Positions 10,840 through 42,700 of a DNA stretch of 64,000 bases are shown here, piece by piece. The translations under genes were made by a program, and so were the position numbers. The DNA comes from Malus domestica (lineage: Eukaryota > Streptophyta > Magnoliopsida > Rosales > Rosaceae): positions 11,478,001 to 11,542,000 of the forward strand of contig NC_091671.1 in NCBI RefSeq assembly GCF_042453785.1, written 5' to 3'. Numbering within the stretch: position 1 is the first letter of the stretch; each line of letters opens with the position of its first letter. Under the pieces are notes generated by a model. It saw nothing but the letters and a program-made list of their open reading frames with translations, made no database searches and was not told where the DNA came from.

Positions 10840-11510
10840 TATTAAGGAGCGAGCCCTTATTCTATAAAAGGGACTCCTTCACTTTCATTAGAGAGCGCCC
10901 ATTATTCATGTACTGATGAGCGAGCCCTTATTTTATAAAGGGACTCCCTCACCTTCATTAGAGAGCATCGCTGCCTACTGAGCAACCACCTCACCGCAAG
11001 CATCAACTCTAACCCATCACTTATGTATTGAGGAGCGAGTTCTTATTTTATAAAAGGGACTTCCTCACCTTTATTAGAGAGCAACGCCGCCAGCTGAGCA
11101 ACCGCCTCGCCGTGAGCATCACTCCTAACCCATCACTTATGTATTGAGGAGCGAGCCCTTATTCTATAAAAGGGATCCCCTCACGACCATTAGAGAGCAT
11201 CACCGCCTACTGAGCAACCGTCTCGCCGCAAGTATCAACTCTAGCCCGTATTTATGTATTGATGAGCGAGCCCTTATTCTATAAAAGGGACTCCCTCACC
11301 TTCATTAGAGAGCATCGCCGCCAGCTGAGCAACCGCCTCACCACGAGCATCACTCCTAACCCATTATTCATGTACTGAGGAGCGAGCCCTTATTTTATAA
11401 AAGGGACCCATTCACCATCATTAAAGAGCATTAACTCTAGCCCATCATTCATGTATTGAGGAGCGAGCCCTTATTCTATAAAAGGGACTTCATCACCTTC
11501 AATGCCACAA
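10840..11510 (+). repeat. Tandem array of TATA-containing LTR promoter units
   Basis: Seven units each contain GAGCGAGCCCTTATTCTATA followed by AAAGGGAC, at about 10850, 10918, 11031, 11148, 11263, 11380 and 11460. Full units are about 115 bp and alternate between two subtypes (GCCTACTGAGCAACC and GCCAGCTGAGCAACC). An eighth, more distant version is the TATA region of the 3' LTR near 11820. Confidence 0.8.
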
Positions 11511-14906: not shown

Positions 14907-16080
14907 TGATATTAACAAATGAGCAGAGTGGGTGAAAGCATTATCATGATTTTAGGCTTGGACTTAATTAAATTTCTTTGAGTCTATATATAAAATGAGC
15001 CAAGTGAATAAGATATTTAAAAAAATAAATAAACGATTTGGTCTAGTTCTGAGGTTCTACCAAGATGAAAACCGAAATGGATATGGATGGTTTGGTCCAG
15101 TTCTTGAACGTAAGTTGATTATTTTTTGTCAACATGGTTTTTTCAGGTTTATTATGTCGTTGTTCGATTCGGTTCCATGATTTTTATGTCCAGCTCTACA
15201 ATTATATATAGAAATAAGGGCCCGTATTTCATATGACACGTTTTGGATTCAATTCTTGGCGTTGGTGAATCACATGATGGTGGTCAGGAGAGGCTGAAAT
15301 GCCTCTGTAAGTCTTTCCGGCCTCCAAAATGATAAGTGAAGATGAATATCACTAGGCCGTAAGATTAAGTAGCAATTGAAGACGTTATTAGATGCAAAAG
15401 TGAGAAGTACTGAGCATGAAAATTTTGCATGCTTAAAGCCGTAAAACAAGTCAGCAATGAAGAGCACCTGTATTCAACAATTGTCCATGTCTGAATTGTG
15501 TGAGTTACAAACTTCACATTCGTTCTTCACTTAAAATACATGTAGCACCAAGTCAGATGTCAAATTTACAAACTAATTAGGTAATTGCACCAAAAATCTG
15601 AAGGCAAACTGAAAATTACAACAAAACGATAATAAGGCATCAAGTTAAGCAAGATAGTACAAAACATGAACAATTAAGACTACCATTAAGAAAAACCGAA
15701 CCTGCTAAGATAGTGGTTGACAAACTCAAATTGTTCCTTCAAACATGCATAGAAGCATCTTTAGCCTTTTAAAATACACCACAATAGCATATTATTGCTC
15801 AAATTTCTAACCCTAATGAAAAGTAAAATTAATAAACATAGGAAATTACAGCTTACGAGAATAAATTAAACACGAATGTACAACGGTTGAGGAAAGAAAT
15901 GCAAAACCTGAACGGGCAAACGGAAACATTTGGTACTTCACACTCTCATTTTTTCTCCTTCTTCTTCCACTTCCAGCAAATTTTCTTATAATTGTATGTA
16001 AACATTTCTTATAGTCTTACAACTATAGAGCTTTGCACAAAAAGAAAGAGGAGATGCTGACGTTTGGTGGGTTGCTCTTA
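14907..16080. other. Unassigned intergenic DNA
   Basis: No supported gene, RNA or bounded repeat. The stretch near 15235-15430 has slightly higher GC and might be an old gene or retroelement remnant, but I could not place it. Confidence 0.35.
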
Positions 16081-16932
16081 TTATTATTTTTTAGGTAAAT
16101 TACATTTTACCCCCCTCATGTTTGTGGTTAATTATAACCTCATACAATATTTTTAAAACATTTCAATCACATACATTTGCTTATTATTTCATTTCAATTT
16201 CATACTTCTGTTTGTCAATCTGCTAATTTGACCGTTAAATGATAATGTATCAACTGTGGATCCCACATTTTTCTAATCTATTTTTTTTTTAATTTATATG
16301 GGTACATTTTTTCGTTGGTTTGAAAATGTATCCATGCCAAGTTATTCGAAGAAATTTATTAATATTATTAGGCCTAATATCTTTTTTTTTTTTTTTAGTG
16401 GTTCTGAAGAATGTACCCATATTTTGGGTTTGAAGAATTTACCAAACGTTTTATGGTACAGTAATTTTTGGTTAATATTGATGAATGTACTATATATATG
16501 TACACAATATGTTCTATAATATGTGTGTGTACATACTTTTTATGGCAAAACATGATTTTCTACATTGGCAACATTGTCTCATCATCCTCTCATGAGCCGT
16601 TTGGTTCTTTTTACATTTAGTTTCCTAAGTTTTTGGACAATAATAAATAAAAGCTTTGTTTGGCCACGTTGCGAACGTAACATATGCTCCCTACAAATAT
16701 TGGCCATTCCAATTTACATGATCCTGCAAATAAAGCACCACAAGCATGGTTGGTTCTTTTTACATTTAGCTTCCTAAGTTTTTGGACAATAATAAATAAA
16801 AGCTTTGTATGGCCACGTTGCGAACGTAACATATGCTCCCTACAAATATTGGTCATTCCAATTTACATGATCCTGCAAATAAAGCACCACAAGCATGGTT
16901 GAAAAAAAATTAAACAAAAATTAAAAATAAAT

Positions 16933-17014
16933 CGTCGCCTGAGAGGTTCGAACTCTCGCGGGGGATCCCCATGCACTTAGCAAGCACACGCCTTAACCAC
17001 TCGGCCAAAGCGAC
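16933..17014 (-). tRNA. tRNA-Ser (anticodon GCT), intact
   Basis: The 82-nt cloverleaf reads on minus from GTCGCTT to AGGCGAC plus discriminator G. The acceptor stem has 7 pairs with one GU. The A box TGGCCGAGTGG is perfect. The anticodon loop TTGCTAA gives anticodon GCT. A long class-II variable arm (GGGGATCCCCC) is followed by a 5-bp T stem (GAGAG/CTCTC) around loop TTCGAAC. A CAA motif sits just upstream (ATCAACA) as in plant Pol III genes, and T runs (TTTATTTTTAATTTTTG) lie within 10-20 nt downstream as terminator. It decodes AGC/AGU. Confidence 0.9.
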
Positions 17015-17507
17015 TGTTGATAACATAGGAGGCTACTCATCTTTTTTAATTAACTATGTAATTAAACAAAAATAAAAAATAAATCGCCACTTGAAATGTG
17101 AGGCTGACGTTTGATGGGTTTCTCTTATTCATTTTTTGAGCAAATTACACTTTATTCCCTCAGGTTCGTGGTCAATTGCAACCACATACAATATTTTTGA
17201 AACATTTTAATCACAAACCTTTACTTAATATTTCATTTCAACTTCATACATTCATTAGTTAATTCGTTAATTTAACCATTAAGTGATGATGTGTCACATC
17301 CTGGCCCGGGCCCCCATCACATTCCGGGCTTGACTCCGCCGTAGCACGATATTGTCTGCTTTAGGCCCCGACCACGCCCTCACGGTTTTGTTTCTAAGAA
17401 CTCACATGAGATCTTCCCAGTGGGTCACCCATCATGGGATTGACCTTGCTCAAACTCGGTTAACTTCGAAGTTCCGATGGAATCCGAGGCCAGTGAGCTC
17501 CCAAAAG

Positions 17508-19937
17508 TAGGGGTGGGCACGGGCCGGGCCGGGCCCAAAATTGGAGGGACCAGACCGGACCCGCTTTAAATTGTAACGGGCCGGGGCGGGCCGAGTAATG
17601 AAAATTTTGAATCTGGAACCGGACCTAACCCGGCCCGTTTGAAACGGGCCGATTCGAGCCTGGTCCACGGTTCCACTTACCTTTTCTTTTTTTTTTATTG
17701 TTGGGTCCAATTGCATTTTATTTTTTTATTGGAACAGAGTACATAGTCTACTGCATCATCCAATTTTTTTTTTCATCTTTGAAATTCCTAAATCCAAAAT
17801 TCCAAATAACATGAAAAATCCAAATTTCCAAGATCCAAAATTAGAACCGAGTACAGAGCCTACAGATACTACGATCCAAAATTTCAAATAACATAAAAAA
17901 TCTAAATAACATCGAAAGTTCAAGGTCCGAACATCAAAATAACATATAAGCTCCGTAATAACATCCTAAACAACAAAATAGCATCCGAGACCAAAGTCCA
18001 AAGATCAAATTAACATCCAAAATAACATAAAATTTGTAATAACATCCAAATTAACATCCGAAATGACTTCCAATATTCTGATGATTTATGATAGAAGGAC
18101 GACACCCTTCCTTTTGACCTCTCTCTAATTACAATTGAGGAAGAAACATATGAGATCATTAGATATGAGAGATTAGAAGCATATTACATAATCAGTAATT
18201 ACATGAAATATATTCATTTTGTCTGTTGGCAAAACATTACATTGGAATGCAATGTTTACCTGAAGTGCAGGAAAACTTGTAAATAACACAAAAACCGGTG
18301 CAGCTAGTCGGTTACAGGGATTAAATAGCATTAACAATAAGGGATGTTAACTTGACAAAGAAGTTATATTCTCACATGCAAAGCATAGAAGATGGTTCAT
18401 ATATATAGTTATCCAAAACACAATCTGTAATTAGGTTTTTGCCATGTGAGATTGGCTGCATCCCTGTAAAAAGCTCCAAAAACACCACACTGAGGCCATA
18501 AACATCCCTCTTATCCGTTAGCTTATGAGGCTATAAACATTCAATGAAAAAACATGAAATATATTACATTTTGGCTTTCTTTATGTTTATGAAATATATT
18601 ACAAATTTCATAAACATAAAGAAATTTCAAAAACATAAAGAAAGCCAACAAACTTTTCATTATTGGCTTTGCTCAATAATCTAGTTAGTTCCGATTCGGG
18701 GTTGAAAATCGAAACCAATAAACTATGGATATCAAATAATCTTAACTATTGGCTTTGACTTACAAGCATTAAGATTGCAGCTTCAACCTTCAATTACCAA
18801 TTTTAGTTCAAAAATTGTAACAAATCGAAAAGTTTCTGCAAATTTAAATACCTAACAACTTAAAATCTACAATCTATAAGCAGATCCATAAAATTCAAAA
18901 CCAATAGAAACGTTTCTGCAAGTAATCAAATCGCAGCAGTCCATATAATCAATCGAAAAGCTTATGCAATCATAGCCCCAAAAACCCTTAATTCCCAAAT
19001 CAGAAACCCACATAATTCCTAAATCAATTGAAATGCTTAAGCAAAAATCCTAAATTCCTAAATCAGAAACCCACATAATTCCTAAATCAATTGAAAAGCT
19101 TATGCAAAAATCCTAAATTCCTAAATCAGAAACCCTAATTTATAAATTACCTAGGGATTTGCAGGATGATGGTGGTGTTCTTGACGGCGAGGATGGTGTG
19201 GTGGTGGTCGGAACTCGCGATTGGGAGGATTGAAGGAGAGTCAGGAGACGATGCCGCGATGGTGATGGTGGCTAGCTGATGTGATGTCGACACAGATGAG
19301 GTCGACTCAGTCACTATGAGTCTCAGAGAGTCGAGTCGAGTCGAGTAGGGGTGAGAGAAAGAACGAGAAAGTGGTGAGGTGAGCACTGTGATGATGGTGG
19401 TTATGACGGCGGTGATGGGGTGATGATGGTGGTTGCGACGGCGGAGGCGGTGATGGGGGGTGATGATGTTGGTCACGACTCGCGACAGCGCTGTGAGAGT
19501 GGTGAGGTGAGCACTGTGAGTCGAAGTCGAGGGAAGGGATAGGGAGAGGGATAGGGAGAGAGACTCAGGGAAAGAGAGTCGATGGAGAGTCTGAGAATCC
19601 GAGAGACTGAGGTCTGAGGCTGCTGAGGCTGAGGATGCTTCTGGAACTCGGGGACTCGGGGAAGGTTGGCTAGGGTTGAAAGTTGAAAACTTGAACTGAC
19701 GGTTGAGATTGGATGGGGAGATGATATTAAATCTCGTTCGTCCAATCTAACACAAACAGGCCGGTCCGGGTACTCGCGGATCCTATAATTTTGGAACCGG
19801 CCCGCCCCTAAAACTTCAATTACCTGGCCCGCCCCGCCCCGATCTATTTTTACAAAACTAAGAACCGACCCGTACCCGCCCCGTACCGGTATTACCCGCC
19901 CCTACCCGCGGGTCCAGGACCCGTTTGCCCAACCATA
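17508..19937. mobile_element. hAT-type element nested in the Cassandra LTR
   Basis: Ends TAGGGGTGGGCA and (reverse) TATGGTTGGGCA, with subterminal GGGCCGG-rich repeats, as in RICESLEEPER-like hAT elements. The 8-bp duplication CCCAAAAG at 17500-17507 and 19938-19945 is diagnostic for hAT. Two Ser/His/Pro-rich minus frames at 19147-19745 show no BED finger or dimerisation domain. The 2.4-kb element appears non-autonomous. Confidence 0.85.
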
Positions 19938-20159
19938 CCCAAAAGGCCTCGTGTTAGGTAGAGATGAGAATATACATATAAGGCTTTACAGGATCCACTC
20001 CCCTGGGCAATGTGGCAATCCACCCCCCTTAGGGGGCCCTACGTCCTCGTCGGCACACTTCCAACCAAGGATTGGCTCTGATACCAAATTGTCACATCCT
20101 GGCCCGGGCCCCACCGTAGCACGATATTGTCTGCTTTAGGCCCTGACCACGCCTTCATG

Positions 20160-20285
20160 GTTTTGTTTCTCGGAACTCACTTGAGAACTTCCCAGTGGAT
20201 CACCCATCATGGAATTGTTCTCGCGCGAACTCGCTTAACTTCGGAGTTCCAATGGAATCCGAAGCCAGTGAGCTCCCAAAAGGCC
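20160..20285 (-). ncRNA. 5S-rRNA-like segment in the Cassandra LTR
   Basis: On minus the LTR contains GGAACTCCGAAGTTAAGCGA and, downstream, GATGGGTGATCCACTGGGAA. These match the internal control region (box A, intermediate element, box C) and 3' part of plant 5S rRNA. In Cassandra this segment is known to be transcribed by Pol III. The second LTR carries the same segment at about 17400-17490 with a few changes. It is not a ribosomal gene. Confidence 0.75.
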
Positions 20286-20652
20286 TCGTGTTAGGTAGAG
20301 ATGAGAATATATATATAAGGCTTACATGATCAACTCCCCTAGCCGATATGGGATATTACATGATGTGTTAACTATGGATCCCACCTTTTTGTTGATTTGA
20401 CAATCACCTTTTTTATGTAAAATCCATTCACTTTTTTTTTTAATCTATTTTTTTAAACTTATATGACATTTTTCTCGTTGATTTGAAAATGTATTCATGT
20501 CAAGTTATTCGAAGAAATATTAATGTTGTTAAGCCTAGTATTCATTATTATTATTTTGGGTTTTTATCACAAAGTATCCAATTTACATGATCCTGCAAAT
20601 AAAGCACCACAAGCATGGTTGAAAAAAAATTAAACAAAAATTAAAAATAAAT

Positions 20653-20734
20653 CGTCGCCTGAGAGGTTCGAACTCTCGCGGGGAATCCCCATGCACTTAG
20701 CAAGCACACGCCTTAACCACTCGGCCAAAGCGAC
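20653..20734 (-). tRNA. tRNA-Ser (anticodon GCT), intact
   Basis: Same as the copy at 16933 except one base in the variable arm (GGGGATTCCCC). All stems, the A and B boxes and the anticodon are kept, with the same flanking CAA-containing leader and T-run terminator. This unit has lost most of its own upstream repeat sequence. Confidence 0.88.
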
Positions 20735-21193
20735 TATTGATGACATAGGAGGCTACTGATCTTTTTTAATTAACTATTTAATTAAACAAAAATTAAAATA
20801 AATAGCCACCTGAGATGTGAGGCTGACTTTTGCTGGGTTTCTCTTATTCATTTTTCGAGTAAATTACATTTTATTCTCTCAGATTTGTGGTCAATTGCAA
20901 CGACATACAATATTTTTGAAACATTTTAATCACATACCTTTACTTACTATTTCATTTCAACTTCATACATTCATTAGTTAATTCGTTAATTTGACTGTTA
21001 AGTGAAGATGTGTCAACTATGGATCCCACCTTTTTGCTGATATGACAATCACCTTTTTTTATGTAAAATCCATTCACTTTTTTTTAATCTATTTTTTAAA
21101 ACTTATATGCCATTTTTCTCATTGATTTGAAAATGTATTCATGTCAAGTTATTCGAAGAAATATTAATGTTGTTAAGCCTAGTATTCATTATT

Positions 21194-22223
21194 AGGTTTT
21201 TATCACAAATGATCCCTGAAATTGAACCACTCAATCAAGATAGTCTCTTAAATTAAAAATCAGTAAATGTAGTTCTTGAAAATAGGTGTCGCAAATCAAT
21301 GTAGTCATTCCGTCACAACTCCGTTAAATATTCTATTATGTGATGATGTATCGCTTAGCTGGGTCCCACAAATATAATTGAATATTGTCAAATAAACTAA
21401 AAATATTTAAATAATGAAATAATAATTTTTATTTTGTATAATTAAAAACTTCCAAAAAAAAAAAAAAATCATCATCTTCCCATCGTGATACTCCAAACAA
21501 TCCAGTCGGGCGTGCAACTCTTGAGGAGCTCAGCGCCGCCTAGCCAAACCCCGAAAATCCGATCAATTGCCTCCCTTTGCAGGTGGCTTTGCACTCTAGG
21601 AAATTTTTGGAAAAAGTTTTAGATGGGCAGTGCGAGGGAGCGGTATAGTAGCAGAGACTGGAGCTTTGCTGTATGTGTACCCAAAGTCGTGCTGGAGAAC
21701 AAGCTGGGTGCAGGGCTTGGTTTTGGAGAGTTCTATGGGTTTGTGTTATTCAAAGAAGAGAGTTGGTGCGCGCGGCGTCGTTTTGAGGGGTGGGCTGGGA
21801 GAGGAGCTTCGATCTGGGTATTTTGCAGAAAAGGTAGTGACCCAAGTTTCATTAAGACTTGAATATGAATTTGCAAAACACTTGCACGGCCGACTGGGAT
21901 TTTTTGGTGTGTGAAGACGGGAAGAAGATGACCATCATCTTTTTTATTCTTATCCTTTTTTTTTAATTCTTAATTATAAAAAATAAAATTTGTTATTTTA
22001 TTATTTAAATATTTTTTTATTCATATAACAATAATTAATTATATTTATGGGACCCAGTTAAATGTCACATCATCATATAACAGAATATTTAACAAAGTTA
22101 TCACAGAAGAACTACATTGATTTGTGACATCCATTTTTAGGAATTACATTGATTGATTTTCAATTTCAGAGAACATTTTGATGGGGTGGGTTAATTTCAG
22201 AAATCATTTATGATAAAAACCCT
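21194..22223. mobile_element. Foldback TIR element with GC-rich cargo
   Basis: The left arm starts GGTTTTTATCACAAATGATC and the right arm, reversed, GGGTTTTTATCATAAATGAT; similarity of the arms extends for more than 200 bp (GTGGGACCCAGTTAA-type motif in both). The centre (about 21475-21925) is clearly more GC-rich and has overlapping open frames without recognised domains. The AT-rich target makes the duplication ambiguous. A copy of the right arm only is found at 22383-22660, and an isolated 16-base tip at 20564-20579. Confidence 0.65.
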
Positions 22224-23204
22224 ATTATTTTTTGTAGTTTTGGAGAATGTACACATGTTTCGGTTTGAAAATTTACCAAACGTTTTATGGTACAGTGACT
22301 TTTGGTTAATATTGATGAATGTACCCATGTTTCGGTTTGAAGAATTTACCAAACGTTTTATGGTACAGTGACTTTTGGTTATTCTTATCCTTTTTTTTTT
22401 AATTCTTAATTATAAAAAATTAAAATTGTTATTTTATTATTTAAATATTTTTTAATTCATATAACAATATTTAATTATATTTGTGGGACCCAGTTAAGTG
22501 TCACATCATCACATAACATAATAGTTAACAAAGTTATCACAGAATGACTACATTGATTTGTGACATCCATTTTCAATGATTATATTCATTGATTTTCAAT
22601 TTCATGGACCATCTTGATGGGATAGGTTAATTTCAGGGATCATTTGTGATAAAAACCTTATTATTTTTTGTGGTTTTGAAGAATGTACCCATGTTTCAGT
22701 TTGAAGAATTTACCAAACATTTTATGGTATAGTAACTTTTGGTTAATATTGATGAATGCATTATATATATGTACACAATATGTTTTACAATATGTGTGTA
22801 CATACTTTTTATGGTATAGTAACTTTTGGTTTTGAAGAATGTACCCATGTTTCAGTTTGAAGAATTTACCAAAGGTTTTATGGTACAACAACTTTTGGTT
22901 AATATTGATGAATGTACTATATATATGTACAATGTATTTTACAATATGTGTGTACGTACCTTTTATGGTAAAACATGATTTTCTACATCGCCAACATTGT
23001 CTCATCATCCTATCATGAGACGTTTGGTTCTTTTTACTTTTAGTTTCTTGTTAAGTTTTTGGACAATGATAAAAAAGCTTTGCATGGCCACGTTGTGAAT
23101 TTACGTAATCCCTACAAATATTGACTATTCCAATTTACATGATCCTACAGATAGAGCACCACAAGCATGGCCAAAAAAAAATTAAACAAAAATTAAAAAT
23201 AAAT

Positions 23205-23286
23205 CGCCGCCTAAGAGGTTCAAACTCTTGCGGGGGATCCTCATGCACTTAGCAAGCACATGCCTTAATCACTCGGCCAAGGCAAC
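23205..23286 (-). pseudogene. Degenerate tRNA-Ser (GCT)
   Basis: Aligned over the full length of the intact copies, but with changes in the T stem and loop (CAAGAGTTTGAACC, read on minus), the D arm (GAGTGATTAAGGC) and the acceptor (GTTGCC against GGCGGC). The B box is damaged, so transcription is doubtful. Confidence 0.7.
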
Positions 23287-23724
23287 TATTGATGACATAG
23301 GAGGCTACTCATTTTTTTAATTAACTATTATTATTATTATTCGTGGTTCTAAAGAATGTACCCATATTTTGGGTTTTAAGAATTTACCAAACGTTTTATG
23401 GTTAAGTGACTTTTGGTTAATATTGATGAATGTAATATATGTACACAATATGTTCTATAATATGTGTGTACATACTTTTATGGCAAAACATGATTTTCTA
23501 CATTGGCAACATTGTCTCATCATCCTATCATGAGACGTTTGGTTCTTTTTACATTTAGTTTCTTAAGTTTTTTTACAACAATAAAAAAAAAAAACTTTGT
23601 ATGGCCACGTTGCGAACATAACGTATACTCCCTACAAATATTGGCCGTTCCAAATTACATGATCCTGCAAATAGAGCACCACAAGCATGGCCAAAAAAAA
23701 TTAAACAAAAATTAAAAATAACCA

Positions 23725-26385
23725 TCGTCTGAGAGGTTCGTGACACACCCCGTCCCGAAGGAGGGCATGCTGGCCGTCACGTGAGAGTGACGTAACCATT
23801 TGCACAGTACGGAAGCTTTAAGATACAATTTATAAGTTGATACACCCGAAGGTGAGTCCTAATTTTGTCCAATCTGTCAGAACACCGTCGAATTCCTCGT
23901 AGTCACCACACCTTTGTGATTCCTGAACCTGGAGGGGCGCAAAACCAAAATTGAGTGGGTCAGTAAAACAATTCTTTTCCAAATCCAAACATTTCTCAAA
24001 ACGTTGTAACCCCTCTCCGTAAAACCTGTATACTTTCCCAGAAATGTAAAATATAAATATACATATATATTCTCAATACTTCAATTCATTAACTCAACAT
24101 TTTTTTCTTTATCAATCATGCCATGCCATGTCTAATTCAACAGTTAAGTATGGATGCATCAACAATAATCATATCAGGTGCAAGAAAGTAATCAACCGGA
24201 GGCCCTCTAATAGCCCTGTACGGTTGAACCTAGAGCTCAAATTCTATCACTCTCACTCTACCGGAGTCACCTCTGTGACCTGTCCGGCCTTCTGCACACA
24301 AGTTACGCTCTAGTGCTTTTCTCATCAATCATCTGTGCACATAATCTAAGGTCACCCACCAGTCGAAATCTCACTAACACTCTTCGACTGGCCCGTCGCA
24401 CCCACTCCGCGTGGACTGTGCGACCAGCATCTACTTGGATCCAAGGCGAGCGTGCGATGCGGTGAATACTATAAGCACTAAACCATGGTGCAGGATTTGA
24501 GCTCAATATACATCAACATCATCATAACAATATTTAAATACTCACCTGTGCGTCCGCCGCACCATTCATTCATATGCATCATATCTCAATTTCATACTTT
24601 TCATATCATTTCATGCATGGCAATTCGATTCACATTTCTATATACTTTTCATATACTTTTATGCATGGCATCTCAATTCACATTTCAATATCCTTTTCAT
24701 ATAATTTTATACATTGCATTTAAAGCATACTTTTATTAAATTTCAATTTCTGGGAAAACGTCAAGTATATATATATACGGAAAACAAAACTGCCCACTCA
24801 CCTGGAGTTCGTCCAACAACTCCCTAGCACCACACATCAAGGCGTCATGACGATCGCCACCTAGAATAGTAATCAAATCCAGGCTCAGAATTCATATCGA
24901 TAAAATATATAACTTATATAAAATACGTCACTACGTTGATCGATCCGGAAGATCTGCCACTCAGATTTTAAATCCATAACTTCCAGAGGTCCACATTATA
25001 CCTCTAGGACAACATCCTAAAATTTCATTACCATCCAACGGTCGGATCTCCGTCAATTTCCAAAACTAAGTGACGGTTAACATTTTATATTATGGACTTA
25101 CAATTCCAATTCCGGAAGATCCGTAACTCGGATTCCCAATCCGTAAGTTCCAATAATCCTCAAATATTACGTATTACAACGTATCAAAGTTTGGTGACGA
25201 TCCAACGGTCGGATCATCAATTCACATTTTCACCTAAATGTGAAAACTATAAAACGTTATTTGAACACCTAACCAACAATCCTTAATAACTTTCTCATAC
25301 GGTGTTCAATTTAGGTATAAGAATATACCACAGTGATCTACTCGACGTCACGGACGTCGACGTATTTTTAAAATAATTTTATTTTTATTTTTTATTTTTA
25401 CTGTAGCACCTTCTTCTTCCTTGGGTCGCCGGACTGGTTTTTCCGGCGGCCGTTTTCTGGGCAGTTTTTCAAATTGCCATAACTTTGTCATTTCTCAACG
25501 AAATCAAGTGATTCAAAAACGAAAGTTGTAGCCCTTGAAGAGAAAAAGAGAATGGTACCTTGAAAAACACCTATTTCCCCGTGGTTTGGCCGGAAACTGC
25601 CTCGAAAGCCTCGGAGGTCGCCGGAACCTGGGTATTTTTCAAATGAGTATAACTTCTTCAATACTCAACTAAATTGAGTGAAACAAAAAGGAAAGTTGTA
25701 GTACTTGACGAGACGAAGAGATTGATACCTACCTCGACTCCTAACTCTCCGGGGATTCGCCGGAAAACGCCTCGAAAGCTCCGGCCAAACTTTGAACTTG
25801 TCGATCTCCGTGTTCTTACGTCCAAAAACTTCCAACGAAGCACTCCGAGCTTCCTTGGGACCTCACTAAGCTTGCTATGATCTTAGTTTGGCCTAAAACA
25901 CAACCACTTCAAAGATCATGAACAGTACACATTCACGGGGTCTTTAGAACTAGGGTTTTTCGAAATGAAACTTACCTGAAAATGGTACCTACGTGATCGT
26001 GAAGTCCTCAGGGTTGCAATGGTAGTCTTAACTTGGACGTTGGTATAGGTTTTAGGTGGTTTTGGTGGTTGCCCGTGCGTTCGAGAAGAAGAGAGAGAGT
26101 GAGAGTTTCTGAGGAAGAGCTGAGGAAGAGAGAGAGAGTGATTGAGGAGATGAGAGAGAGACAACAAACGGGAAATGGGGAGGGATTTAGGGTGTAGGAC
26201 CCTACCTAAAGTCCAAACACAAAATTATTAGTCCAAGTTTAAGTTTAATTAACAATAGCTTAGGAATTTTAGGTAAAACCAATACCAAAATTACGCACCT
26301 TAATCCCGTTTAAGGGCATTTTCGTCTTTTCACGTCCTCGGAATTAAAATTCCAGGACGGGCTGTGACAGTTCGAACTCTCGAAA
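23725..26385 (-). pseudogene. tRNA-Ser copy cut by a solo LTR
   Basis: The 3' end of the tRNA (acceptor and half the T-arm) lies at 23725-23740, and TTCGAACTCTC follows the LTR at 26371. The remainder is missing: after CTCGAAAGGGATT the sequence switches to the downstream flank of the repeat unit, and an 86-bp segment is then tandemly duplicated (26384-26469 and 26470-26555). The gene is dead. Confidence 0.75.
23741..26369. mobile_element. Solo LTR, 2.6 kb, inside a tRNA T-arm
   Basis: Starts TGACACACCCCGTCC and ends GGACGGGCTGTGACA, giving TG...CA and a short imperfect terminal inverted repeat. The 5-bp duplication GTTCG (23736-23740 and 26370-26374) is the conserved T-loop GTTCG of the tRNA. 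There is no gag or pol, primer site or second LTR. Family not identified. Confidence 0.85.
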
Positions 26386-26558
26386 GGGATTTCCAAATTA
26401 CATGATCTTGCAAATAGAGCACCACAAGCATGGCCGAAAAAAAAATTAAACAAAAATTAAAAATAAATCACGAAAGGGATTTCCAAATTACATGATCTTG
26501 CAAATAGAGCACCACAAGCATGGCCGAAAAAAAAATTAAACAAAAATTAAAAATAAAT

Positions 26559-26640
26559 CATCGTTTGAGAGGTTCGAACTCTCGCAAGGGATCCCCATGC
26601 ACTTAGCAAGCACACGTCTTAACCACTCGGCCAAATCAAC
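26559..26640 (-). pseudogene. Degenerate tRNA-Ser (GCT)
   Basis: Anticodon arm, T-arm and B box are kept, but the acceptor arm reads GTTGATT against AAACGAT with an A-A mismatch and several wobble pairs, and the D arm is also changed. Probably not a functional gene. Confidence 0.7.
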
Positions 26641-27764
26641 TGTTGATGACATAGGAGGCTACTCATCTTTTTTTAATTAACTATTTAATTAAACAAAAAT
26701 AAAAAACAAATTGCCGTCTGAGATATGAGGCTAGCGTTTGATGGGTTTCTCTTATTCATTTTCGAGTAAATTACATTTTATTCCCTCAGGTTTGTGGTCA
26801 ATCGCAACCTCATACAATATTTTTGAAACATTGTAATCACATACCTTTACTTACTATTTCATTTCAACTTCATACATCCATTAGTTATTTTGTTAATTTG
26901 AGCATTAAGTGATGAAGTGTCAACTATGGATCCCACCTTTTTGCTGGTATGACAGTCAAATTTGTCTACATTGATTAAAAAATAAATTATAAATAAAAAA
27001 TTGGGCCCCACCCCTTAAATCTTAGTTTGCAGCTATTCCAGAATCCAACTAATTCTTACCAAAAAACACTGATTGTGGCTGTTGCCATGACCATGACATC
27101 AATTCCAGTTGATTTTCAATTTTTTATTCTCTTAAACATACCCATTTGTATAATTTTTCAATTTTTTTTAAATATACCAATTGTGATATGTAAAATATAC
27201 CAATTTCTTTTAATGTAAAACATACCCATTTTTTATGTAAAATCCATTCACTTTTTTTTTAATCTATTTTTTAAAACTTATATGGGTGCATTTTTTTCGT
27301 TGATTTGAAAATGTATTCATGTCAAGTTATTCAAAGAAATTTATTAATGTTATTAAGCTAGTATTCATTATTATTATTTTTCATAGTTTTGAAGAATGTA
27401 CCCATGTTTTCAGTTTGAAGAATTTACCAAACGTTTTATGGTACAGTAACTTTTGGTTAATATTGATGAAAGTATTATATATATGTACACAATGTGTTTT
27501 ACAATATGCGTGTACATACTTTTTATGGCAAAACATGATTTTCTACATCAGCAGCATTGTCTCATCATCCTATCATGAGACGTTTGGTTCTTTTTACTTT
27601 TAGTTTCTTGTTAAGTTTTTGGACAATGATAAAAAAGCTTTGCATGGCCACGTTGTGAATGTAACGTAATCCCTACAAATATTGACCATTCCAATTTACA
27701 TGATCATGCAGATAGAGCACCACAAGCATGGCCAAAAACAATTAAACAAAAATTAAAAATAAAT

Positions 27765-27846
27765 CGTCGCCTGAGAGGTTCGAACTCTCGCGGGGGATCC
27801 CCATGCACTTAGCAAGCACACGCCTTAACCACTCGGCCAAAGCGAC
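27765..27846 (-). tRNA. tRNA-Ser (anticodon GCT), intact
   Basis: Identical over all 82 bases to the copy at 16933, which lies nearly 11 kb away and is separated by decayed copies. It has the same leader (CATCAACA) and T-run terminator. Confidence 0.9.
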
Positions 27847-27918
27847 TGTTGATGACATAGGAGGCTACTGATCTTTTTTAATTAATTATTTAATTAATCA
27901 AAGTCTTTGTTTCTAAAT

Positions 27919-28135
27919 AAGGATCCTCTTCGGATCCTCAGGATCTCAAAGATCCCTCAATCACATATGTTCATTGTAAATCGTGCAGCTATTTTTCTTC
28001 AGGTACGGTTTATATTCAACTTTAAATAATATAAAAAATACAATGATTTATGATCGCACGATATACAATGAACGAACGTGATTGGAGGTTCTCGGAGATC
28101 CTCACAAAGAGGATTCATAGAGGATCCTCGTTCCC
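27919..28135. mobile_element. Palindromic MITE, copy 1
   Basis: Inverted arms AGGATCCTC...CAATCACATATGTTCATTG pair with CAATGAACGAACGTGATTGG...GAGGATCCTC. Length about 215 bp, no coding. Ends approximate. Confidence 0.6.
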
Positions 28136-28230
28136 TAATTTCCTCTCATGAACTTACTCATGCAAGCTCATGAGTAGCACCAGTAGTAGCACTAGAAGCA
28201 AACAATATAAATTGGCAGCGGCGGCAAATA

Positions 28231-28320
28231 ATGGAGGAGGAGCAGACAGCACAGATGCGCGAAATCTTCCGATCGTTTAACGGCAACAAAGACAGCAGCT
28301 TGACCAACCCGGAGTTGTAA
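28231..28320 (+). pseudogene. Calmodulin-like (EF-hand) first-exon fragment
   Basis: A 29-codon frame starts MEEEQTAQMREIFRSFNGNK and continues DSSLTNPEL before a TAA. The N-terminal helix and the first half of an EF-hand loop resemble plant calmodulin-like proteins of the CML18 type, where the loop would normally read D-R-N-x-D-G-S-L. Here the first calcium-ligand Asp is Asn. Only this piece remains, so I call it a captured or duplicated gene fragment. A second copy is at 29877. Confidence 0.5.
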
Positions 28321-29453
28321 AATAATTGACCAAGTGATCAATGAAGAGTGTAAAATAATTGCAATAAGGTGATTTAGCAAGTTAATGGAGTTTTCTCTCC
28401 CGATTGGGTGAGAGTTTCTCTTTGCACTACAAGAAAAATGCTCATCTACCACGATGAATGCATGTGATAGATTGCAATCCACCACAGACATTGTGCCTAT
28501 TAGAAAACTGGATGTGATAAAAAGTCTCAGTTTCTACCACGAGTTATGCCCGTTGTCAAATGTAATGTAACCACAAACAGTGCCCTTTGTAGGTTGGAAT
28601 GTACCACGGGTATTATTGCTATTGTGGATTACTTATTTACCACGAGTAATGCCCGTTATAAAAAAAATTTCCAAAAAAAAAAATATATATATATATATAA
28701 ACCCACAAAATTGGAAATTTACTATAAATACAATTTTTTTTTAAATAATCACATATTAAAAAAGAATTACAAATTGTACAAAGCTAACAGCACCACCATC
28801 GATTTTCAATTTTTTTTAATCTCTTAAACATACCCATTTGTATAATTTTTCAATTTTTTAAATATACCAATTGTTATATGTAAAATATACCGATTTCTTT
28901 TAATGTAAAACATACCCATTTTTTTATGTAAAATCTATTCACTTTTTTTTAATCTATTTTTTTAAACATATATGGGTACATTTTTCTTGTTGATTTGAAA
29001 ATGTATTCACATCAAGTTATTCAAAGAAATTTATTGATGTTATTAAGCATAGTAGTCATTATTATTATTTTTCATGGTTTTGAAGAATGTACCCATGTTT
29101 TCAGTTTGAAGAATTTACCAAACGTTTTATGGTACAACAACTTTTGGTTAATATTGATGAATGTACTATATATATGTACAATGTGTTTTACAATATGTGT
29201 GTACATACTTTTTATGGTAAAACATGATTTTGTACATCGCCAACATTGTCTCATCATCCTATCATGAGACGTTTGGTTCTTTTTACTTTTAGTTTCTTGT
29301 TAAGTTTTTGGACAATGATAAAAAAGCTTTGCATGGCCACGTTGTGAATGTAACGTAATCCCTACAAATATTGACCGTTCCAATTTACATGATCATGCAG
29401 ATAGAGCACCACAAGCATGGCCGAAAAAAATTAAACAAAAATTTAAAATAAAT

Positions 29454-29535
29454 TGTCGCCTAAGAGGTTTGAACTCTCACGAGGGATCCCCATGCACTTA
29501 GCGAGCACACACCTTAACCACTCGACCAAAGCAAC
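29454..29535 (-). pseudogene. Degenerate tRNA-Ser (GCT)
   Basis: The anticodon GCT remains, but the universal U33 is replaced (loop TCGCTAA), the A box reads TGGTCGAGTGG and there are further changes in the acceptor and D arm. This is the last unit of the array. Confidence 0.7.
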
Positions 29536-29605
29536 TGTTGATGATGTAGGAGGCTACTAATCCTTTTTAATTAATTATTTAATTAAACAAAGTCCTTGTT
29601 TCTAA

Positions 29606-29810
29606 ATGAGGACCCTTAAGATCTCAAAGATCCTCCAATCACATCTGTTCATCGTACATCGTGCAACTATTTTTCTTCAGGTACAGTTTATATTCAACTT
29701 TAAATAAAAAAATACAATGATTTATGATCATACGATGTACGATGAACAGACGTGATTGGAGAGTCCTGGAGATCCTCACAAAGAGAATTAGAAGAGGATC
29801 CTCGTCCCTA
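29606..29810. mobile_element. Palindromic MITE, copy 2
   Basis: Collinear with the MITE at 27919-28135 and duplicated with it. The arm sequences CAATCACATCTGTTCATCG and CGATGAACAGACGTGATTGG are still complementary. Confidence 0.6.
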
Positions 29811-29876
29811 ATTTTCTCTTGTGAACTTAGTCATGCAAGCTAAGCAAACAATATAAATCGATGGTGGCGGCGAATA

Positions 29877-29970
29877 ATGGAGGAGGAGCAGAATGCGCAA
29901 GATCTTCCGATCGTTTGACGGCTACAAAGACGGCAGCAAAGACGGCAGCTTGACCGACCTAGAGTTGTAA
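29877..29970 (+). pseudogene. Second copy of the calmodulin-like fragment
   Basis: Begins MEEEQ, then a deletion shifts the frame. The EIFRSFDG coding can still be followed in another frame, with an extra AAAGACGGCAGC duplication. It lies in the duplicate of the 27.1-28.7 kb segment. Confidence 0.5.
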
Positions 29971-30309
29971 AATAATTGACCAAGAGATCAATGAAGAGTG
30001 TAAAATAATTGCAATAGGGTGATTTAGCAAGTTAATGGAGTTTTCTCTCCTGTTAGGGTGAGAGTTTCTCTCCACACTAGAAGAAAAATGCTCATCTACC
30101 ACGGTGAATGCTCGTGATAGATTGCAATCCACCATAAACATTGTACCCGTTAGTAATTTGGATGTGATAAAAAATCTCAATTTCTACCACGAGATATGCC
30201 CGTTGTCAAATGTAATGTAACCACAAACAGTGCCCGTTGTAGATTGGAATTTACCATGGGTACTATTGCCGTTGTGGATTACTTATTTACCACAAGTAAT
30301 TCTGGTTAT

Positions 30310-32100
30310 CAAAGACTCATTTATAAAGGAATATAAAAAAAATGATACAAATGAAAATCAAACTTACCCAACCAAAAGAAAAAGGAATATTCATCCAAAT
30401 GTAAACTCTTCCTATTGGCTGGCAAAGCGATGAGATTCGACGGAGCAATGGACGAATTGATGGAGTGACAGCGGAGCAATGGATAGACGGATCAATGGAG
30501 TGAGCGGCGGAGGTGAGAAAGAGGGCGAAACCAAGGCCGAATTTATAAGGATTTCAACGAAATTAGGGAAAATTGCTTCAAAAACAAAGCTTTTGATGGC
30601 AATTTTGAAGATATTATGGTCAATAGAGTCTCATCTCCACTGAGTTGGCTCGGAGGAGGAAGAAGGGTTCTTCTTGCATCGGTAAAGGGACGAATTAGGA
30701 AACGTGAAGAAGGTTTGAGAGGAAGTATGAACATGGGTGCTTGTGGGGACATAGGATTGGAGTAGATATGGAAGCCACTATGAGAGAGAGAAAAAGAGAG
30801 AGGAATAGAAGATAAAGTGGAAGAGATGGGGGGCATGGGGAAGGTAGAGAGCACGCAAAGTGGATTTGTAGAATCTCCTACAGTTTTTTTTATATCTTTT
30901 AGATTAAATATTTATGTCTTTTTAAAATTTGATTAAAATGTTTTGACTAATAAACATCTTTCGCATTTTCAGTTAATTTAAATTACAACTCATTTGTATT
31001 TTTTTTAAATAAAATGTTAAGTATTAATTTCTGAATTTATCCTCTAAGTTGTTGGATGTGTTTTTTTTCTTATTTAGTGGGATATTGGTTATTAACTCTA
31101 TTATCTCTTTTTTCAATTATATTCTTTCGATCAAAATAAATTGTCATGTCCTACAAACATTAAATATTCTATCTTTTTCCAAATGGGTTGTTTTTATGGA
31201 TTTTTTTCCAAATCGTTGGTGATCCACATTAATTTTTGGAAGTTTTAACGAAAAGCCCACGGTACTGTTAATTTTAATGAAAAACCAAATTTTTACACTA
31301 AAAAGTCAAACCTGGTACTATTCATTTTACCTTTTATTTTGTCCTTATCGTTAAAACTCAAAGTTTTCAATCCCCTTTCATTAGTTTTCCTTTAATTTTT
31401 TCATATTTTTTATTAGTGACTATTTTCTTTGCATTTTTTTTTTACTTATAGTTGTTGACAAACTATTATCAGGTACAACATATTATGTGTATATTGTCGT
31501 TGGGTACGTTTGAATTTGTAAAAAACGTTGATTGGTACGTTTATTTGCGGTTTTGGTACGTTCGATTTAGTATATATTGTTGATATTGGTACATTATTTT
31601 CAGTTTTGGTACGTTCGATTTTGTACACATTATTTACTGGTACGTTTATATTGTTGTTAGTCCTATTTTTGGTACGTTTGATTTCGTTGGATTTAAAAAT
31701 ATTTTAAATCGTTTTAAAAAATTAAATATATATTAAATCGTAGATAATCATTGCTAACTTGTAGGAAGTATTGTGAAAATAAATTGTATTTAACTACTTA
31801 TTTTTTTTTACAATTATCTCCAAAGAGGGAGAGGGTAATCAAAATGCTGATTATAAAGAATTTTGGCGTGAGGTTTTAAGAACTATGGGACAGTGGCAGG
31901 TTATGTACTTTTGGTACAAAAAAATATTAATTCTTATACATGTGGCACCAAAATTATGAGAAGAAGGGCTTAATTAAATCTTTAAAATGCATGGATGTTT
32001 TATTTAAAAAATTCAAAATTGAGGCATTTATTTCAAAATGTCCCATAATTATGAATGACTGTACCACATGTTAAGCATGTAGTAGATAATAAAAAAGGTG
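30310..32100. other. Interior of the CACTA-like element
   Basis: Non-coding as far as I can see. It contains a GA-rich patch (30430-30860) and a cluster of TTGGTACGTT-like motifs at 31490-31690 (at least six), which may be binding repeats. A MITE lies at 31233-31365. Confidence 0.4.
31233..31365. mobile_element. Small MITE (AGTTTTAACGAAAAGC family), copy 1
   Basis: Starts AAGTTTTAACGAAAAGCCC and ends CGTTAAAACTCAAAGTTTTC, an imperfect inverted repeat. The interior contains ACGGTACTGTT and CTGGTACTATTCATTTTACC. A diverged relative is at 39336. Confidence 0.5.
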
Positions 32101-39716: not shown

Positions 39717-42700
39717 ATGTGGGCGTCGCAGAGAATCATCTATGCTCTCGCTCTCGCTCATCCCCTCTCGTCTTCGTCAGCCTTCGTTTCCGGAATTTTC
39801 CTCTTCCTCCGGTCCTCCTCTCCTTCCTCCGCCCATCCTCGCTTTCTCCCTCCCTCGCTTTCTCTCTCCTCTTCCATCTCGCTCCCCCATTCCAGCATGC
39901 CTTACAACCAGGTACCAATTTTATCTTATTTTAATTTGACTTTTCATTTTTACGCTGTTTTTGTATGGTTCGGCGATCATTTTCTGTTTTTTTTTTTTTT
40001 TGGAGCTCGTTTACTTTGAATGTGATTATAAATTGATTGGTGGCGGTTTCGGTTTGTTGATCGTCGTCTGAGTAATTTTCTTGGCCGAAACGTTTTGTTG
40101 CGGATCGGTTAATTGCGATTTGTGAATTCAATTTTTATGTTAATTTTGAATTTCGAACCGTGTTGTTACGCACTACATTTGTAAACGTTTGGCGGAGATT
40201 GCTTATTATTGCTGTGGAAGTTGATCGTCTGCTAACTATGGTTGAATTGGATGAATTTAGCTTCATAATTCGGGGTGGTATTTCGGGACTGTATGGTTGT
40301 TTCTGTAATGTGATATTAATTTCAGCGAAAACTTGGTTCGGCCCATATAAATAATTGGTATTCTTCTGTAGTAGTAGGAAAATTATAGCAGTATTATACT
40401 TTGCGCGGGAGTGATTGTATATATCTTAATGCGGTTCTGGTCCCGGTTTAGGAGTTGTAATGACGTTGCCTCCTGATAAAGTAGAGCCTCACGGCCTATG
40501 TACATTGTGGTGAAGACTCTGGTTGTTTTTACTTTAGTTGAACATTGCCTTGCTTGAGTGTATGATTGAGATGTTTGGTTTACTTTGCAGCAAAGGGGTG
40601 GGCGTACAGAACAAAAGTGGACACAAAAGCAAAAGACTGACAGCCCGTCAATGTCCACTGGGGATTCTTCAGCAGCTGTCACTAACAGAGTTGGTGAGTT
40701 GAGTCTTACTGGAAGCAATGGGCAGGCCAATGCTTCAGTTGAACCCACACAGTTTGGGAAGGTCCAATTGGCAAATCAGGGTCCAGTTCAAGGGCAGAAA
40801 GGAATTTGGATGCCTAAATCATATGTGACAGTGAGCGGAGCTAAGGCGGTAGAAGTTGAAGCAAATGTTGATGAAAGTACAGTTGGAACCCAAGGAAATG
40901 GAGCTGGACAAGCAGCAGCTCAAAAAACCAGAGTTGGTTTAAGTAAGCTGTTCAATGGTAATCTGTTGGAAAATTTTACTGTGGACAACTCCACTTATGC
41001 TCAGGTGCAAATACGAGCTACTTTCTATCCCAAATTTGAAAATGAGAAGACAGATGGGGAGGTATATTTCTCTTCATGAGTTTCCAATTTCAAATATATT
41101 TATCCATTTGTGTCTCTTGTATGGGAATTACCAACATCAATAGCGTTATGCGGGTTTTTTCTCCAACAACTAGCATGTGCTTGCGTCACTGGATTATGTT
41201 ATATAGCCAAGGAAAACAAATAGAAATGTGCTCATATTTTATAGAATAGTGATGTGATTAAATGGCTACTTGCCTTTAGATAATGATGAGATTGTTTATT
41301 TCTTCTTGGATCTTATCTGAATACTTGTCTGATGATTATTTCTTTATTCAGATTAGGACAAGGATGATAGAGATGGTATCTAACGGCTTGGCTACCTTGG
41401 AGGTAAGGGTGTTTTATGAGCTATTGAATTGCTTCCTTGCTGCATGGACATTTTATCTGTTGGCTTTCATGTTAGCAATCATTCTTACTCTCTCGTAAGT
41501 GTTGGGGAGCCTCCAGTTGCTTATGCTTGCTTAGATTTACAGTTTTCTGGTTGATTCAATTTTGTTGTTATTTTACTAAATTAATCTTCATATGAAGAAT
41601 TTATTTACAATGAAACTTTTTGCAGGTTTCACTTAAACACTCAGGGTCTCTTTTTATGTACGCCGGTAATAAGGGTGGGGCATATGCCAAAAACAGCTTT
41701 GGGAATATGTATGCACAAGACGACCATTTCTTCCCATCCTTTTTATATGTTTTTTAATTGTTCAATTCACTCAATGAACGAAAAGATCAATGGAGTCAGT
41801 CGTGTTAAATATCTTGTAGTTTCTTTGTTAACCTCATGTCTTGAAGGGCATGATGTGTGCAGTGCACAAGCAAAATGGATATTGTATTCCTTAGAATACT
41901 GTTCGTAATTTGTACAATACACGAATTTCTTAACTGTCAACTTTTATTAAGTAAATTTGTTTTATTGCTTATGTCATCATTAATTGGAATACTTAAATGA
42001 ATCTGATTATAGAGCAAGTTCTGGAACCATTTTGGGAGAACAAATCTGATCGAGGGAAAGATTTGATTGAAACTTTATGTGTTGCATGTTTCCACTATAT
42101 CTGCATTTTTGGAACCAGTGCTTGACACTTAATGTGTTGGATGTTTCCACTATATCACTAATTGGAATACTCAAATGAATCTGACTACAGAGCAAGTTCT
42201 GGAACCATTTTGGAGAAAAAATCTGATCGAGGAAAACATTTGCTTGAAACTTAATGTGTTGAATGTTTCCACTATGTCTGCATTTCTTCCTTGTTTTGTA
42301 CTTATTTATAGAGAGGTTAGTCGTGGTTTGCTGAATATTCTATTTCTACTACAGATATACGGCTGTAGGTGTATTTGTTCTTGGACGGATGTTTCGGGAG
42401 GCATGGGGACGTGAAGCACCAAAAATGCAAGAAGAGTTTAATGATTTCCTTGAGGTATGCTATTCACATGAGAAACCTGAACATAAAGAAAACTGATCTT
42501 CATTAATAGCTATAAATTTCTTCCCTTCTGTACTTGTTTAGTCAAATCTAAGGTTGACTGTGATAGTTCTTAAAAACAAAAAAATTTATTCTCGAGAGAG
42601 GCTAACTATTCTGATCAAAGTATTGGTTTTTGGCTGAATTTTTTTTTTTTGAGAAGAAACAAAACATTTTATAGAAGAAAAGAGAAATACACTGGAATGG

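Follow-up and report, generated by a model that had tools for sequence, protein, structure and literature searches.

In Malus domestica, a 64-kb stretch of contig NC_091671.1 (64,000 nucleotides, below referred to as the window) carries a degenerate tandem array of units built around tRNA-Ser(GCT) genes, in which three copies are intact and four are broken. The intact copies are conserved beyond what their flanks predict, the dead copies diverge at a neutral-like rate, and their changes are biased towards cytosines in CG and CHG contexts (H being A, C or T). These observations are best explained, with good though not full confidence, by local amplification of the gene, with three copies kept by purifying selection and four decaying near-neutrally.

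In this reading, a nuclear tRNA-Ser(GCT) gene would have been amplified by local duplication of the unequal-crossover type, in which the whole unit was copied, upstream DNA included. T1, T2 and T6 (numbering as listed below) would be held by purifying selection on the tRNA product, while the four other copies would have lost function and decayed at about the regional neutral rate, mostly by C-to-T changes at CG and CHG sites, and further through inserted transposons, deletions and small duplications. Unequal crossing-over, DNA methylation and transcription of the intact copies are those parts of the model that we infer from sequence.

Intact and decayed copies

On the minus strand, ARAGORN reports six tRNA-Ser(GCT) genes, starting at 16933, 20653, 23205, 26559, 27765 and 29454, and a BLAST search with the 82-base gene reveals a split seventh copy (T4), which bears out the seven minus-strand copies of an earlier first-pass annotation of this DNA. 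The array and its copies are as follows (TSD, target-site duplication):

16047..30313, minus strand: the whole array, its tandem tRNA-Ser(GCT) units degenerate and interrupted by transposons (self-BLAST)
16933..17014, minus strand: T1, intact tRNA-Ser(GCT) (ARAGORN; Rfam 49.6 bits; 0 mispairs, 0 invariant bases lost)
20653..20734, minus strand: T2, intact tRNA-Ser(GCT), single change C51T in the variable-arm loop (ARAGORN; Rfam 49.6 bits)
23205..23286, minus strand: T3, decayed, with 9 changes, among them the loss of G19 and C56; one mispair, in the variable arm (Rfam 38.2 bits)
23723..23740, minus strand: T4, 3' portion of a copy that is interrupted within its B box (BLAST)
26370..26390, minus strand: T4 remnant past an insertion (second TSD copy and a short piece of tRNA), after which the next unit is joined on (weak 21-base BLAST match)
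26381..26560, no strand: the region directly downstream of T5 in two identical copies of 90 bp, plus the end of the T4 remnant (tandem repeat, 100%)
26559..26640, minus strand: T5, decayed, with 8 changes, six G-U pairs and mispairing at 5-77 and 11-24 (Rfam 33.1 bits)
27765..27846, minus strand: T6, intact tRNA-Ser(GCT), identical to T1 (ARAGORN; Rfam 49.6 bits)
29454..29535, minus strand: T7, decayed, with 9 changes that include U33>C and, at the discriminator, G73>A; eight G-U pairs (Rfam 34.0 bits)

T1 and T6 agree at 82/82 bases and T2 is one base off (C51T, in the variable arm), as the first-pass annotation had stated. In T1, T2 and T6, a cloverleaf with a long variable arm, the GCT anticodon, U33 and G73 are all present, whereas T3, T5 and T7 each depart from a tRNA in at least one respect, be it pairing or an invariant base. 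U33, the serine discriminator G73 and other invariant bases have established roles in tRNA. The kinds of loss that the first-pass annotation had named for the decayed copies were found again, namely U33 in T7 (29454), a B-box C in T3 (23205) and pairing in T5 (26559). We infer that T1, T2 and T6 are transcribed.

A and B boxes, an upstream CAA motif and a T-run terminator accompany T1, T2 and T6, likewise as first described; however, the CAA at -5 and the T-run stand beside all six whole copies, the decayed T3, T5 and T7 included, and, hence, do not discriminate live from dead. The Rfam tRNA cut-off is 29, and the per-copy scores were obtained with permissive filters; with default filters, five copies are reported, the one at 23205 (T3) not among them. 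Since ARAGORN and the Rfam cut-off still pass decayed copies, a gene finder alone cannot separate the two classes.

The units had been described as about 1 kb long, which does not hold throughout: they are not uniform, with start-to-start spacings from T1 to T7 of 3720, 2552, 518, 2836, 1206 and 1689 bp. Without the two clean insertions, the first gap comes to 646 bp and the fourth to 202 bp. By self-comparison, a unit consists of shared blocks A, B and C followed by the gene, with blocks absent, broken or swapped in many units, and a segment of about 1.55 kb that bears T6 recurs with T7 at 87.7% (self-BLAST). Directly downstream of T1, a 149-bp direct repeat (16601-16901, 98% alike) represents a recent local duplication. 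Beyond T7, positions 29620-29774 form a long imperfect inverted repeat resembling a miniature inverted-repeat transposable element, with sub-threshold microRNA-family matches; such matches in 27950-29781 were disregarded, as they are weak and far under the gathering scores.

Divergence of genes and flanks

As a null, transition rates at CG, CHG and CHH sites as well as transversion rates were taken from homologous flanks and converted into the number of differences expected in a neutral tRNA. All 15 pairs among the six whole copies were compared.

Two intact copies:
T1-T6: 15.9 expected, 0 seen (0/200,000 simulations)
T1-T2: 10.9 expected, 1 seen, P 0.0009
T2-T6: 16.2 expected, 1 seen, P 0.0013, from a flank without a CG site, so that this rate rests on the prior

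One intact and one dead copy:
T1-T3: 16.7 expected, 9 seen, P 0.033
T1-T5: 17.2 expected, 8 seen, P 0.013
T1-T7: 17.9 expected, 9 seen, P 0.019
T2-T3: 15.5 expected, 10 seen, P 0.28
T2-T5: 14.7 expected, 9 seen, P 0.10
T2-T7: 21.3 expected, 10 seen, P 0.037
T3-T6: 10.5 expected, 9 seen, P 0.42
T5-T6: 10.6 expected, 8 seen, P 0.40
T6-T7: 12.4 expected, 9 seen, P 0.19

Two dead copies (P for as many or more):
T3-T5: 14.4 expected, 15 seen, P 0.50
T3-T7: 9.5 expected, 14 seen, P 0.13
T5-T7: 11.2 expected, 13 seen, P 0.35

The ratio of seen to expected differences is, thus, 0-0.1 for the three intact-intact pairs, 0.5-0.9 for the nine intact-dead pairs, all of which lie under expectation, and 1.0-1.5 for the three dead-dead pairs, none of which does. 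This grading from almost none over part to full divergence is as predicted by constraint on three copies; purifying selection on T1, T2 and T6 would be the simplest account of their conservation, and selection on the gene, one of the options raised in the first-pass annotation, is well supported.

A faster than neutral decay of the dead tRNAs was considered and dropped, the dead-dead pairs not being significantly high against the context-aware null. In raw terms, the tRNA differs at 17% (T3-T7) and 11% (T3-T6) compared to 3% and 5% in the adjacent left flank, and T3-T5 divergence exceeds that of the core flank (Fisher P 0.024). This raw excess does not indicate faster decay, because the tRNA is rich in CG and CHG sites.

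Several points weigh against selection on three copies as the explanation. The 15 pairs overlap and are not independent; the flanks of T2-T6, T2-T3, T2-T7, T3-T5, T5-T6 and T5-T7 are short, at 119-132 sites, of which 0-2 are CG sites; and T6 reaches 0.73-0.86 of expectation against the dead copies, which is nearer full than half. A plain Fisher comparison of tRNA and core flank is weak (T1-T6 P 0.008, T1-T2 P 0.25). Furthermore, the CG/CHG bias reported in the next section is regional, and unpolarised in the flanks, so that it is not a mark of dead copies alone.

The strongest competitor, to which we give a minor but real share of probability, is gene conversion, either among the intact copies or with dispersed tRNA-Ser(GCT) genes as donors, which would repeatedly rewrite some copies and leave selection a minor role. 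It would fit the full identity of T1 and T6, whose flanks differ at 59/561 sites (10.5%), and also the 76 identical bases that T1 and T2 share downstream of the gene, their upstream flank differing at 8%. Against it, the identity of T1 and T6 reaches no further than 25 bp beyond the downstream end of the gene and 7 bp beyond its upstream end, and the decayed copies are unhomogenised, with 8-10 differences from the intact copies and 13-15 among themselves. Conversion limited to the intact copies, or from dispersed genes, would nevertheless yield the same identity, and this counts among the points against selection.

That the tRNA gene is part of a short interspersed element (SINE) family of tRNA origin, or is carried by a transposon, appears improbable. 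The gene is an RNA polymerase III (Pol III) gene within transposon-rich repeated DNA, and a carrier element whose ends escape recognition is conceivable, Helitron carriage being discussed for the Arabidopsis cysteine cluster (PMC10701932, here and below from excerpts of that paper). However, the six whole copies have DNA upstream of the gene in common (43 bp in T3 at 23205, at least 54 bp in the other five), as well as downstream DNA. Upstream DNA would be absent from a retroposed Pol III transcript, and the copies do not begin at the Pol III start, contrary to what is expected of a SINE. The three intact cloverleaves (T1, T2, T6) speak against this origin as well, and no array pieces were found in the rest of the 64-kb window. 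The preference of the first-pass annotation for gene amplification over a SINE is, therefore, supported by the shared upstream DNA and by the confinement to the array within the 64 kb. A 19-base upstream motif had 0 matches in a viral contig set and 0 in a genome contig set, as expected for plant DNA, and none of the open-access papers listed for Malus SINEs was directly useful.

The relationship of the units was inspected in two trees. In the unrooted C-block tree (T1, T3, T4, T6 and T7; T2 and T5 lack enough of the C block), T1+T4 are split from T3+T6+T7 at 100/100 and T3 and T7 are sisters at 86/86; in a tree of core flanks, built from all six whole copies, T1-T2 (85/90) and T6-T7 (83/83) group together, with T3 and T5 not placed. 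Intact genes, hence, lie on both sides of the C-block tree. Recent duplication of the copies at 16933 and 27765, which the first-pass annotation had suggested from their 82/82 identical bases, can practically be set aside, because T1 and T6 fall on opposite sides of the 100/100 split, their C blocks differ by a Kimura two-parameter (K2P) distance of 0.12, and their flank divergence predicts about 16 tRNA differences, none of which is seen.

Decay spectrum and known plant clusters

Of 26 changes in T3, T5 and T7 together, 25 are transitions, and 23/26 replace a G or C by an A or T. The C/G-to-T/A transitions affect 12/48 CG, 6/15 CHG and 4/87 CHH sites (CG+CHG vs CHH, P 9e-5), and with each site counted once 14/21 CG+CHG vs 4/29 CHH sites (P 2e-4); CG alone vs other C/G sites gives a weaker contrast (P 0.024). 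The same bias is found in the T6-T7 flanks (CG+CHG 44/126 vs CHH 38/372, P 1e-9), and over the flank comparisons the CG rate exceeds that of CHH in 14/15 and the CHG rate in 12/15. Deamination of methylated cytosine gives CG/CHG-biased transitions. As the bias matches this process, the array region was probably methylated, perhaps including DNA beside the intact genes.

Some lesions are common to several copies, namely C3T and C74T to T3 and T7, and G77A and C81T to the T4 fragment and T5. Part of the decay may, thus, predate the last duplications; C3T, however, also occurs in T5, so that recurrence at hot sites is possible. Among the open-access papers listed on methylation-driven decay of plant tRNA pseudogenes, none was directly useful, and neither were the matches listed for plant tRNA genes and transcription-associated mutagenesis.

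The locus is ordinary in kind: an old, degenerate plant tRNA cluster, which joins the known tandem clusters (Arabidopsis SYY, Pro, Cys). In the excerpted text of PMC11700998, tandem tRNA clusters are reported for 40/44 eudicot genomes under a rule of three genes per kb. The apple array resembles the eudicot tRNA-Pro clusters of that source in being a local duplication of one isotype in a eudicot nuclear genome, with several same-isotype genes in tandem units that share flanks. It is far looser, though: nowhere do at least three tRNA genes fall within 1 kb (spacings 518-3720 bp), and the array would escape the rule.

The SYY cluster (tRNA-Ser/Tyr/Tyr) on Arabidopsis chromosome 1 is described as active in root-cap cells (PMC12308677, in part). 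Likewise a tandem serine tRNA amplification, it has a core of major copies surrounded by pseudogenes and CG>CHG>CHH methylation, the last of which would apply to the apple array by way of its mutation bias. The apple array differs in being serine-only with seven copies, SYY having 54 clustered tRNA-Tyr genes alone (PMC12308677), and in its irregular, diverged units with transposon insertions. No tRNA-Tyr gene was found in the window by ARAGORN or Rfam, although an intron-bearing gene could escape the bacterial mode of ARAGORN. It is a rather unlikely idea that the array is an apple-lineage counterpart of SYY, lying in methylated DNA, with three genes selected because they would be switched on in particular cells for AGC/AGU codons.

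With the tRNA-Cys-GCA cluster on Arabidopsis chromosome 5 (PMC10701932), the array has in common that a small number of genes for one isoacceptor lie in repeat units, with a pseudogene component and transposon association; the units of that cluster are regular (about 0.42 kb), while those of apple are irregular, with 4/7 copies dead. Among the matches listed for apple or Rosaceae tRNA clusters in the open-access literature, nothing concerned the apple array, which is not proof of nothing in print. Arrays of this type show, at one locus with matched neutral flanks, which tRNA copies are selected. With 3/7 copies seemingly selected despite a methylation-like mutation bias, the locus offers a natural test of whether clustered tRNA genes that are under selection are also in use.

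Insertions in the array and the rest of the window

Three elements interrupt the array (LTR, long terminal repeat; TRIM, terminal-repeat retrotransposon in miniature):

17292..20360, minus strand: TRIM retrotransposon between T1 and T2, 3,069 bp, TSD TGATG, 271-bp right LTR (ends, TSD)
17508..19937, no strand: element nested in one TRIM LTR, hAT-like as judged from its ends, 8-bp TSD CCCAAAAG
23741..26369, no strand: insertion in T4, TGACAC...GTGACA, 2,629 bp, 5-bp TSD GTTCG, LTR-like (ends and TSD)

The insertion in T4, with TG...CA ends, cuts the B box, and the copy beyond it is truncated and joined to the next unit; it is probably a solo LTR. The TRIM contains a motif resembling a primer-binding site, which we take to be of the initiator tRNA-Met type, and both of its LTRs show 5S rRNA matches (34.6 and 28.7 bits) under the Rfam gathering score of 38. 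On the basis of its TSD, the 271-bp LTR and these sub-threshold matches, it is probably a Cassandra TRIM, a group with short LTRs bearing a 5S rRNA-like promoter, a primer-binding site and no coding region (in part from PMC10853983). Its LTRs differ from each other at 26/191 aligned sites (K2P 0.153), which indicates an old insertion, into a unit that must be old as well. A Cassandra-like TRIM inside a tRNA array and an LTR-like element in a tRNA B box are two events, too few to judge targeting of Pol III genes.

Outside the array, ten reading frames were compared with Pfam, which identified three as PPR gene pieces and two as copia pieces; of the other five, one matches a plant transposon, one a tRNA ligase domain and one a MaoC domain, and two are unmatched. 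The ligase frame (60165-60608, plus strand) matches the tRNA ligase phosphodiesterase domain PF08302; a frame without Pfam match (40570-41079, plus strand) resembles a plant tRNA ligase nearer its start and would presumably belong to the same gene. If both belong to one gene, its introns hold a long interspersed element (LINE) and a copia element. Plant tRNA-Ser is normally intron-less, and the closeness of ligase frames and tRNA array is, therefore, probably due to chance. A long open LINE frame (42780-45545, minus strand, 921 aa) aligns along its whole length with a Malus domestica protein of 1062 aa at 99% identity, followed among named matches by Malus (84-72%) and Pyrus (76%) proteins, which places the window in apple or a near relative. 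At 10908-11431, a tandem repeat comprises 4.5 copies of a 116-bp unit.

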